Below are positions 4,308-44,053 of a DNA stretch of 64,000 nt, in pieces. The translations under genes were made by a program, and so were the position numbers. A model generated the notes under the pieces. The model was not told the origin of the DNA. It saw nothing but the letters and a program-made list of their open reading frames with translations, and did not search any database. The stretch covers positions 1,006,572-1,070,571 of the forward strand of contig JALEGD010000001.1 in the NCBI GenBank assembly GCA_022763425.1, written 5' to 3'. This DNA is from Pelagibacteraceae bacterium. Its GTDB lineage: Bacteria; Pseudomonadota; Alphaproteobacteria; Pelagibacterales; Pelagibacteraceae. Within the stretch, counting starts at the first letter, position 1. Each line of letters starts with the position of its first letter.

Positions 4308-4470
4308 AATAAACTCTGTTCATATGCCCGTCTGTCGATTTACCTGAGAGATTTGCTCCTTCGGTGGGACTTTAATCCGCTTTCCAGAGTTTATTTTATA
4401 TACGGTCCATTTACCTGAGAGTTTCCTGGGCTTTGCTCCTTCGGTGCTGATTTAACAGACTCTCCCGTAT
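4308..4470 (-). promoter_or_regulatory. Tandem glycine riboswitch upstream of gcvT
   Basis: On the minus strand two glycine-aptamer cores follow each other, each with the conserved CACCGAAGGAGCAAA-type block and a CTCTCAGGTAAA-type block. Aptamer I spans about 4400-4470 and is closed by a 6-bp P1 (4400-4405 with 4465-4470). Aptamer II spans about 4308-4395 and is closed by an 11-bp perfect P1 (4308-4318 with 4385-4395). The linker is only about 4 bases. The 3' strand of P1-II ends one base before the gcvT ATG and contains its AGAG ribosome-binding bases. No terminator hairpin with a U run is visible, so control is more likely translational. Glycine riboswitches before gcvT are established in SAR11. 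Confidence 0.95.
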
Positions 4471-4483
4471 AAAATCACACTAT

Positions 4484-17129: not shown

Positions 17130-17831
17130 TTACTTTGCTGATGCAGGAGTAAGTGACTTAGCTGTATGCCAGATCACTAAACCAAAGATCAACTTGTTAA
17201 TAAAGTCTGCTAGGTTGTAAATGATGTTTAACGAAACTTCGTCCGCTGAACCAGTCATATAACCAAATAGGTAACCTAATGGATATACCGCCCAACCGAT
17301 AGTAACGATCCACTTACAGAATTCGAAACAGCTCGCAGCAGCGCCTTTTAATTTTTTCGCTTCTTGACCTGCTTCACCTGCAAATACTTCATATAGAATG
17401 TAGATCCATCCAGCCATACCGATGATGAAACCTAAGTTGATGCCGATGTAACCAGCTTCTCCTAGGTAACCACCTACTAGCATGATTAAAGTACCGATTA
17501 ATAGTCTCCAGAAAATACCACCAGAAACTTTTTTAACTGCTGATAAGATGAAGTAGAACTCAATCATCAATAGCGGCACAGTTAGTAACCAGTCGATATA
17601 TCTAAATACAGTTGGTGAAGTACCAGTTGTTACCCAAACGTCTCTCATGTACATGTAGTGCACGAATGCAATACCAGTAACTAGACCAGATAACGTAACT
17701 GAAGTTCTCCAAGATGCTTTTACTGAATTTCTTTCGATGAAAAAGAAAACAGTAGCTGCTAACATAGTCATTGAAATCAACCAGAAAGTAACTCCAGTGA
17801 AGTCATTTGACTGTAGTATTACGTTTTTCAT
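17130..17831 (-). CDS. Proteorhodopsin, green-tuned light-driven proton pump
   Basis: 233-residue seven-helix microbial rhodopsin. By alignment to the well-known green proteorhodopsin, Arg77, Asp80 (counterion, D97), Leu88 (tuning site L105, predicting green absorption), Glu91 (proton donor, E108), His58 (H75) and Lys213 (retinal Schiff base, K231) are all present, so this should be an outward proton pump. The protein begins MKNVILQSND and has no separate signal peptide, unlike many proteorhodopsins. The start is well supported by AAGGAG 5-6 bases upstream. It is divergent from crtI across 176 bases, has a structured leader with an internal terminator-like hairpin, and ends in a strong terminator. 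Likely one of the most expressed genes here. Confidence 0.98.
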   Translation of the reverse strand: MKNVILQSNDFTGVTFWLISMTMLAATVFFFIERNSVKASWRTSVTLSGLVTGIAFVHYMYMRDVWVTTGTSPTVFRYIDWLLTVPLLMIEFYFILSAVKKVSGGIFWRLLIGTLIMLVGGYLGEAGYIGINLGFIIGMAGWIYILYEVFAGEAGQEAKKLKGAAASCFEFCKWIVTIGWAVYPLGYLFGYMTGSADEVSLNIIYNLADFINKLIFGLVIWHTAKSLTPASAK

Positions 17832-17839
17832 ATTTCTCC

Positions 17840-17906
17840 TTTTTGTTTAAACAAAAAAAAGCGAAACCAATTGGAGTCGCTTTTAGATGCGACACTTTAT
17901 ACTTAT
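17840..17906 (-). promoter_or_regulatory. Proteorhodopsin 5' leader with alternative hairpins and palindrome
   Basis: Read on the minus strand: a TATAAGTATAAAG stretch (about 17894-17906) usable as -10; hairpin A, GTCGC (17889-17893) with GCGAC (17876-17880) around an 8-base loop; hairpin B, GCGACTCC (17873-17880) with GGTTTCGC (17861-17868), imperfect, followed at once by eight T; then an 18-bp perfect palindrome centred on GTTTAAAC (17840-17857), and the AGGAG site. A and B share GCGA, so they exclude each other, as antiterminator and terminator do. The structure is read directly; regulatory function is inferred. Confidence 0.5.
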
Positions 17907-18007
17907 ATTTGCGTTCATTAAAACCCTTAAAAAACATTAATTTCCACAAAAAGACGCTTTTTTCCTGAAAAAATGCAACTTTTAATATACTTTTTAGATA
18001 GTTCAAA

Positions 18008-28993: not shown

Positions 28994-29113
28994 ATACAAC
29001 CTTTAATTGTTTTTGTTATATCCCAAATTCATAACTGGGATAATTAAATAATTGTAATTTAACTTAGATTTTTCTATCTTAAGCCATCTTTAATTTAAAT
29101 TAAAAGGGGAACA
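28994..29113 (+). promoter_or_regulatory. Upstream region of aapJ with inverted repeat
   Basis: TATCCCA (29019-29025) and TGGGATA (29036-29042) form a 7-bp perfect inverted repeat with a 10-base spacer, about 72-95 bases before the aapJ ATG. No T run follows, so it reads as an operator or RNA hairpin more than as a terminator. A strong ribosome-binding site AAAGGGGA stands before ATG at 29114. Confidence 0.4.
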
Positions 29114-30157
29114 ATGAAAAACATAATGAAAGCAATTGGTAGTTTATCAGTATTAGCTTTTGTTTTAACAGCTTGCGGCGACGGCGGTGGAGCTAAAAAA
29201 ACAACTAGTACTTTAGATACTACTAAAAGTCAGGGCTTTGTAAAATGTGGAGTTTCACAAGGTCTTCCAGGATTTTCTAATGCTGATGCATCAGGAAACT
29301 GGACAGGTATCGACGTAGACGTTTGTAGAGCAGTAGCTGCTGCAGTTTTAGGTGATGCTAATAAAGTAAAGTATACACCTTTAAGTGCTAAAGAAAGATT
29401 CACCGCATTACAAGCTGGAGAAATCGACGTACTTTCAAGAAACACAACTTGGACATTAGAAAGAGATGCTTCAATCGGATTAACATTCGTTGGTGTAAAC
29501 TTCTACGATGGTCAAGGTTTCATGGTAAGAAAAGCAACTGGAATAAAATCAGTTAATGATTTTAAAAACGGTGTAAAAGTATGTACAAACACTGGTACAA
29601 CAACTGAGCTTAACATGGCTGACTTCTTTAAATCTAAAGGAGTTCAATATGAACCTGTAGTATTTGAAAAAGCGGACGAAGTTGTACAAGCTTATGATGC
29701 TGGTAGATGTGATACTTATACAACTGATAAATCAGGATTAGCAGCTCAAAGAACTAAAATGTCTGCACCTGGTGACCACGTTGTATTACCAGAGACAATT
29801 TCTAAAGAACCTTTAGGCCCTGTTGTAAGACAAGGTGATGCTAAATGGGAAGATGTTGTTAGATGGTCATTAAATGTATGGATTGAAGCTGAAGAGTACG
29901 GTGTAAATTCAGGCAATATTGACTCTATGAAAGACAGCAAAAACCCAGCTATTCAAAGAATAGTCGGTGCTGAAGGTACTAAAAATGGTGAAGCCCTAGG
30001 TTTAGATAACCAGTGGAGCTATAGAATTATCAAGCAAGTTGGTAACTATGGTGAAAGCTATAAAAAACATATAGCTGATACTGGTATTTTACCTGACAGA
30101 GGTCCAAATAACTTATGGACTAAAGGCGGAATACTTTACGTACCACCAGTTAGATAA
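29114..30157 (+). CDS. aapJ: General L-amino-acid ABC transporter, substrate-binding protein (AapJ-like)
   Basis: 347 residues: a signal segment with lipobox LTAC, so Cys21 is predicted to be lipid-modified, followed by Gly/Lys linker and the amino-acid-binding fold (VKCGVSQGLPGFSNADASGNW, GIDVDVCRAVAAAVLGD, FTALQAGEIDVLSRNTTWT). It is closest in pattern to AapJ/BztA, which take up many L-amino acids. Codons are cleaner and GC a little higher than in neighbours, consistent with strong expression. A terminator-like hairpin separates it from the permease genes, which would allow excess binding protein. AapJ of other species is usually a soluble periplasmic protein, so the lipobox is noteworthy. 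Confidence 0.93.
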   Translation: MKNIMKAIGSLSVLAFVLTACGDGGGAKKTTSTLDTTKSQGFVKCGVSQGLPGFSNADASGNWTGIDVDVCRAVAAAVLGDANKVKYTPLSAKERFTALQAGEIDVLSRNTTWTLERDASIGLTFVGVNFYDGQGFMVRKATGIKSVNDFKNGVKVCTNTGTTTELNMADFFKSKGVQYEPVVFEKADEVVQAYDAGRCDTYTTDKSGLAAQRTKMSAPGDHVVLPETISKEPLGPVVRQGDAKWEDVVRWSLNVWIEAEEYGVNSGNIDSMKDSKNPAIQRIVGAEGTKNGEALGLDNQWSYRIIKQVGNYGESYKKHIADTGILPDRGPNNLWTKGGILYVPPVR

Positions 30158-43585: not shown

Positions 43586-44053
43586 TTACTTAGCTTTTAC
43601 AGTTACAGATCTTCTGTTTTGAGACCATGCTAGTCTTGAAGATTCTGGGTTTACAGGTCTTTCTTTACCATAACTGATTACAGTCACGTTACTTCCGCTA
43701 ACACCTTGAGACATTAAATAATCTCTTACAGCGTTTGCTCTTCTTTCACCTAATGCTAAGTTGTACTCTCTAGTACCTCTTTCGTCGGCATGACCTTCTA
43801 CTACCACACTAATTCCAGAAGACTTAATATAAGCTGCTTGCTTATTTAAAGTGCTTTTAGATGCAGTATGTAAAGCTGATTTGTTAGTTGCAAAGAATAC
43901 TCTATCAGGAACACCAGCTGCTAAAAATTTTACAGTGTCTGTTCCAGTGTACCAATCGTTTGACGTTCTTTTTTTTCCGCCAGTTGCACAGGCAGATACT
44001 AAAAAACCTAAAACTGCTACAAGAGCGAAATTTCTAATATTAGTTAATGACAT
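43586..44053 (-). CDS. pal: Peptidoglycan-associated lipoprotein Pal
   Basis: 155 residues: a lipoprotein signal with lipobox (VSAC, Cys22 predicted lipidated), a short linker, and a C-terminal OmpA-like peptidoglycan-binding domain containing VEGHADERGTREYNLALGERRA and a NRRSVTV end. It anchors outer membrane to the cell wall and binds TolB. Order tolQ-tolR-tolA-tolB-pal is complete here. About 94 bases separate it from tolB. Confidence 0.97.
   Translation of the reverse strand: MSLTNIRNFALVAVLGFLVSACATGGKKRTSNDWYTGTDTVKFLAAGVPDRVFFATNKSALHTASKSTLNKQAAYIKSSGISVVVEGHADERGTREYNLALGERRANAVRDYLMSQGVSGSNVTVISYGKERPVNPESSRLAWSQNRRSVTVKAK

Follow-up and report, generated by a model that had tools for sequence, protein, structure and literature searches.

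A conserved 5'-terminal stem-loop in the proteorhodopsin leader of SAR11 bacteria, with an attenuator-like appearance in one genome

The analysed window, a stretch of 64,000 nucleotides, belongs to a SAR11 genome that is complete at 1.21 Mb. Among named relatives the nearest is HIMB114, which we take to belong to subclade IIIa. The window carries a proteorhodopsin gene on the minus strand, divergent from crtI (18008, plus strand), and relatives of this gene were identified in 318 of 397 genomes of the family. Read on the minus strand, the leader is TATAAA-GTGTCGC-ATCTAAAAGCGACTCCAATTGGTTTCGCTTTTTTTTGTTTAAACAAAAAGGAGAAAT-ATG, with the ATG at 17831.

17901-17896, minus strand: TATAAA, the -10 box predicted for proteorhodopsin, from conservation and spacing to hairpin 2
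17893-17889 and 17880-17876, minus strand: hairpin 1, GTCGC/GCGAC, originally proposed as an antiterminator and judged here not to be a functional RNA hairpin
17888, minus strand: predicted transcription start, an A 7 nt 3' of the -10 box, from homology to the HTCC7211 start and the conserved TGnCGCA
17884-17857 (core 17880-17861), minus strand: hairpin 2, 5'-terminal, originally proposed as a terminator; from folding and compensatory changes
17857-17840, minus strand: AT-rich perfect 18-bp palindrome TTTTTGTTTAAACAAAAA, second stem-loop of the predicted leader, with homologues at the same place
17840-17836, minus strand: Shine-Dalgarno sequence AGGAG, free of pairing when the RNA is folded from 17888 at minimum energy
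17130-17831, minus strand: proteorhodopsin gene, an open reading frame of 233 aa with about 99.6-100% identity to HIMB114
17109-17088, minus strand: intrinsic terminator-like site AAGGCCCGCTTCGGCGGGCCTT plus T7, 3' of proteorhodopsin, GC-rich and a local yardstick for a strong terminator
29114-30157, plus strand: yhdW orthologue (78% identical), an amino-acid ABC transporter binding protein

The core of hairpin 2 is GCGACTCCAATTGGTTTCGC (17880-17861), which is followed by T8 (17860-17853); with its A-U extension the hairpin comprises AAAAGCGA/UCGCUUUU plus CC/GG (17884-17857). Both GTCGC/GCGAC and the hairpin at 17861-17880 with its U8 are present on the minus strand as described in the original prediction, and they do share the GCGA segment. 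The 18-bp palindrome before AGGAG is present as well, overlapping the last five U of the run rather than following it. The sequence TTTTGTTTAAACAAAA occurs once in the genome. On the other side of the intergenic region, TTTTTTCCTGAAAAAA at 17958-17973 lies near the presumed -35 region of crtI and is mostly kept in close relatives, and is possibly a regulator site.

Both hairpin segments fold better than dinucleotide shuffles, with z-scores of -4.0 for hairpin 1 and -3.0 to -4.5 for hairpin 2 (-11.3 kcal/mol and z -4.5 alone). A transcript starting at 17888 is predicted to fold into two stem-loops, hairpin 2 and that of the palindrome, at -13.6 kcal/mol and z -3.3 with the Shine-Dalgarno sequence open, and one starting at 17894 would form hairpin 1 and pair AGGAG. 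The position of the 5' end therefore matters.

A promoter consensus scan gave no minus-strand site at the proteorhodopsin leader, so the start was placed from conservation and a published start site. Start sites have been mapped in situ on HTCC7211, with gene coordinates (PMC5069720, Table 2). We infer that the 5' coordinates of the genes with start-site reads are the mapped starts, and hence that the table serves as a start-site list, because glcB gives exactly the 162-nt leader stated in the text of that paper and because the majority of the remaining genes with such reads have a -10-like box just 5' of the coordinate. Decoded in this manner, the proteorhodopsin coordinate 529616 is 74 nt 5' of the ATG; TATTTA lies 7 nt upstream of it, and the stem of hairpin 2 begins after 5 unpaired nucleotides. 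Since the reads came from the environment and were aligned to the reference, this start belongs to populations close to HTCC7211. The window shares its 11-12 nt between -10 box and hairpin 2 with 65 of the 70 leaders scored and with most Ia leaders. The site of TATAAA (17901-17896) reads TATAAA or TATATA in each of the six close relatives, whereas they do not keep the neighbouring TATAAG. On these grounds the start in the window strain is predicted by homology at A17888, inside hairpin 1 and not at its head as had been proposed.

Comparison with relatives gives hairpin 1 little standing as an RNA element. In six close relatives its cells are paired in 63% of cases and show zero double changes, it is complete only in the window strain, and it is absent from the distinct leaders compared in other genera. 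Of its arms, only CGC/GCG is kept among relatives. The conserved CGC is better read from its position as a promoter discriminator just after the -10 box, and the CGC/GCG would be kept because one side is this discriminator and the other is the 5' arm of hairpin 2. Moreover, the 5' arm of hairpin 1 comes after the -10 box but before the predicted start, hence probably upstream of the transcript. An attenuator with hairpin 1 as its antiterminator was rejected on this combination of partial pairing, missing compensatory change and a probably untranscribed arm.

A wider form of the idea is that, at least in subclade IIIa, hairpin 2 and a run of U6-8 terminate transcription at about +36 unless some factor or hairpin 1 prevents it. 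Such a run follows hairpin 2 in 11 of 13 IIIa leaders, and the stems of some IIIa leaders reach 11-12 pairs. However, the run doubles as the 5' arm of the palindrome, and the remaining two IIIa leaders have U3 and U4 while keeping the palindrome. Upstream of hairpin 2 there is no room for an antiterminator, and hairpin 1 is unsupported and probably untranscribed. Leaders of other genera and of the Ia type lack a U-run after the hairpin even though hairpin 2 covaries there; because the run is limited to subclade IIIa, termination cannot be the general role of this structure. Together with the constitutive, light-independent expression reported for a SAR11 isolate (PMC3090418), these observations speak against the proposed antiterminator/terminator switch, and we regard attenuation as improbable even in IIIa.

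Hairpin 2 behaves quite differently from hairpin 1. Leaders were collected from about 150 proteorhodopsin loci, of which 120 differ from one another within their final 95 nt, and in 92 distinct leaders from many genera a hairpin stands directly 5' of a perfect AT-rich palindrome, which is followed by the Shine-Dalgarno sequence. The arms of the hairpin are wholly replaced between lineages with the pairing retained, as in these examples.

HIMB114, hairpin 2: GCGAAUCC-GAAU-GGCUUCGC
HTCC1062, hairpin 2: GACUUAAAC-AUUU-GUUUAAGUC
another leader, hairpin 2: UGUGAAUUCUAU-AUAA-GUAGAAUUCACA
another leader, hairpin 2: GGCUUAAG-GAAG-CUUAAGCC
another leader, hairpin 2: GUUCGAG-GAAA-CUCGAAC
another leader, hairpin 2: GGUCUAAAU-UGU-AUUUAGACC

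Among the close relatives of the window strain, 92% of hairpin 2 cells are paired. In the 42 leaders with a 12-nt palindrome, seven of the eight hairpin 2 pairs changed on both sides, giving 29 double-changed cells against 7.9 in shuffles, and the palindrome pairs are invariant. Because the shuffle test ignores kinship, evolution was also simulated along the proteorhodopsin gene tree (24 columns, 31 leaders, fitted column rates, and a root fixed as the consensus hairpin, a choice that works in favour of the null). The observed values were 91.1% paired, 25 double changes and a covariation score of 0.454, against null means of 70.1%, 7.3 and 0.168, and none of 1000 simulations reached the observed paired fraction, double changes or covariation score. 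The MAFFT alignment of the IIIa set was out of structural register and is excluded from these pair counts. The 34 nt 5' of the palindrome also fold better than dinucleotide shuffles, with mean z-scores of -3.45, -2.68 and -2.78 by leader group; control stretches upstream of the leaders gave means of -0.3 to -0.5. Since its letters change freely while the pairing is kept, hairpin 2 is a real RNA element, and the comparisons show selection on its structure throughout Pelagibacteraceae, with its distance from the promoter fixed. The compensatory changes that the original prediction sought in both hairpins are thus found in hairpin 2 and not in hairpin 1, and it is likewise hairpin 1, not hairpin 2, for which conservation fails and a start inside the element is predicted.

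No aptamer-like or loop nucleotides are conserved in hairpin 2 among the compared leaders, and the leader has no Rfam match at either the gathering or a relaxed threshold; with the hairpin sequence unconserved, a riboswitch or a known RNA family was rejected. Leaders of the freshwater Fonsibacter/LD12 group (L006, L008, L009, L014-L017, L098) lack both hairpins and are otherwise unstructured, which means that LD12 has lost the leader. Hairpin 2 is also missing from the proteorhodopsin leaders of the sister family (L250-L269), most of which carry a palindrome such as TAATTTTATAAAATTA directly 5' of the Shine-Dalgarno sequence GGGGA. Second rhodopsins, about 42% identical, occur in some genomes, and no such leader was present in those examined. 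A search for viral copies of the proteorhodopsin gene found none.

The palindrome has the form GTTT...AAAC and measures 8 nt in IIIa and 12, 14 or 16 nt in other genera; its core GTTTAAAC is invariant in the 13 IIIa leaders. The centres vary (UUAA, AUAU, AAUU, UAUA) and are always self-complementary, loop included. AT palindromes alone are not rare here, as 6 of 68 sampled open reading frames of the window have a perfect palindrome of at least 12 nt upstream. One open reading frame of 156 aa at 44053 on the minus strand has TAAAATTTAAATTTTA directly 5' of AGAGGA, a Shine-Dalgarno-like site. A possible third AU stem is formed by the flanks of the Shine-Dalgarno sequence in six leaders (L132, L121, L117, L133, L140, L147), in forms such as AAAAACU..AGUUUUU, GAAAAC..GUUUUC and GAAAC..GUUUC, with matched length and G-C changes.

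It could be supposed that the palindrome is a DNA operator which binds a dimeric transcription factor just 3' of the start site, as all variants are perfectly palindromic, centre included, with constant half-sites GTTT/AAAC. The half-site spacing nevertheless differs between lineages (0, 4, 6 and 8 bp for palindromes of 8, 12, 14 and 16 nt), the adjoining hairpin covaries as RNA, and the exact 16-mer of the palindrome has one occurrence in its own genome. We consider an operator very unlikely. A genome-wide operator was rejected separately, the exact core being unique and two-mismatch matches being close to the control count.

Control of translation is harder to dismiss. A protein, small RNA or metabolite may act on the palindrome hairpin and the Shine-Dalgarno sequence, with hairpin 2 as a scaffold. 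Palindrome, spacer and Shine-Dalgarno sequence are far more conserved than hairpin 2, an extra AU stem in Ia and some other genera puts the Shine-Dalgarno sequence in a loop, the window fold pairs AGGAG if hairpin 1 is transcribed, and a similar palindrome lies upstream of yhdW. Set against this, the covarying hairpin has no conserved loop or aptamer-like nucleotides and no Rfam match, the Shine-Dalgarno sequence is open in the predicted fold, and expression is reported not to respond to light (PMC3090418). We found no explanation for a palindrome that changes length and is always self-complementary; a simple hairpin would not require this, nor would an operator for a dimer. Because this property is unaccounted for, we keep a control element as a possibility that deserves consideration, albeit on the unlikely side.

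Other SAR11 leaders provide a context. In 26 HTCC7211 genes that are highly transcribed and have start sites (PMC5069720, Table 2), leaders are mostly 0-34 nt. Long and strongly structured leaders of their own are limited to proteorhodopsin (74 nt, -19 kcal/mol) and glcB (a glycine riboswitch); the "long" leaders of PB7211_8 and atpD seem to begin within the coding sequence upstream. A glycine riboswitch is also present in the window at 4393-4477 on the minus strand (Rfam RF00504, 63.9 bits). The yhdW leader of HTCC7211 is 60 nt, and in 28 other SAR11 genomes it shows a ATTCAAAA..TTTTGAAT hairpin and then an invariant TATTTGTTAACAAATA, a layout that resembles proteorhodopsin, with a weak fold (z -1.2). 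In the window, yhdW has the perfect AT palindrome TTTAATTTAAATTAAA (29089-29104) directly 5' of its Shine-Dalgarno sequence and a leader with no significant fold (z -0.2). One might speculate, as a rather doubtful proposal, that proteorhodopsin, yhdW and other very abundant mRNAs share a leader RNA of a new class that extends through the SAR11 order, in which an always self-complementary AU hairpin at the Shine-Dalgarno sequence is bound by a factor, or joins one mRNA to another by pairing, and controls how the mRNA is translated or decays. If true, such a class would govern the surface ocean's chief mRNA for light energy.

On balance, we lean towards a 5'-terminal stem-loop that shields a highly expressed, light-independent mRNA with an open Shine-Dalgarno sequence, and that is not an attenuator. 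The proteorhodopsin mRNA would start at about A17888 with 4-5 unpaired nucleotides, followed by hairpin 2 (17884-17857), free in sequence and kept in pairing, then directly by the AU-rich stem-loop of the perfect palindrome (17857-17840) and the open Shine-Dalgarno sequence. Hairpin 2 may hinder access of RppH and RNase E to the 5' end, as the E. coli ompA-type stem-loop does, so that a highly expressed and constitutive mRNA would last and be translated. Hairpins at the 5' end are known to hold back RppH and can make an mRNA more stable (PMC3997798), and proteorhodopsin expression in a SAR11 isolate is constitutive and light-independent (PMC3090418). RNase E (PF10150) and RppH (NF001938) scored above cut-off in five SAR11 genomes, including that of the window. 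As in ompA-type leaders, the stem lies a few nucleotides from the 5' end (5 nt in HTCC7211, and by prediction in the window strain), and its pairing is conserved while its sequence is not. Stabilisation of the mRNA by hairpin 2 is what we infer from these parallels.

Several observations weigh against a stabiliser. Judged by eye, the likely start lies about 10 nt 5' of the hairpin in several IIIa genera. Such a distance is more than ompA-type protection usually tolerates. A generic stabiliser does not account for the near-invariant and always self-complementary palindrome, and LD12 does without the leader. The ratio of RNA-Seq to start-site reads for proteorhodopsin, 265/507 and not length-normalised, is not high (PMC5069720).

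Proteorhodopsin is a light-driven proton pump, and in SAR11, the most abundant bacteria of the ocean, its gene is one of those most heavily transcribed in surface waters; in HTCC7211 it ranks 10th by start-site reads (PMC5069720). The leader provides a specific locus at which mRNA lifetime, translation or both can be tested, and its natural loss in freshwater LD12 offers a ready comparison. We found nothing in the literature on control of SAR11 proteorhodopsin mRNA, and the structured leader is absent from Rfam with no prior description found. What holds of the undescribed control originally suggested is hence the structured leader itself, and not control by attenuation. SAR11 cis-regulatory RNAs described to date include the rpsB, rpsL and ffh motifs and SAM-V (Meyer et al. 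2009, PMC2704228), and HIMB5 has been surveyed (Stav et al. 2019, PMC6429828); the main texts of both papers do not mention rhodopsin, and an anonymous entry in their supplementary tables is possible. Those RNAs are likewise structured leaders of the same organisms, obtained by comparing intergenic regions, and the proteorhodopsin leader differs from them in having no aptamer-like conservation.

Transcription attenuators share with the window strain a hairpin and then U8 near the start codon. The SAR11 leader differs in that it has no conserved antiterminator, in that its hairpin stands at the very 5' end, and in that most lineages have no U-run. A hairpin and U-run at the very 5' end can therefore mimic an attenuator in one genome, and it is the relatives that show otherwise. 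The closer likeness is to the stabilisers of ompA and papA in E. coli and aprE in B. subtilis, which also place a stem-loop a few nucleotides into a highly expressed mRNA, with a free stem sequence and an open Shine-Dalgarno sequence downstream, and SAR11 encodes both RppH and RNase E. In contrast with these known stabilisers, SAR11 hairpin 2 is adjoined by an ever-present AT palindrome and is conserved across a bacterial family.
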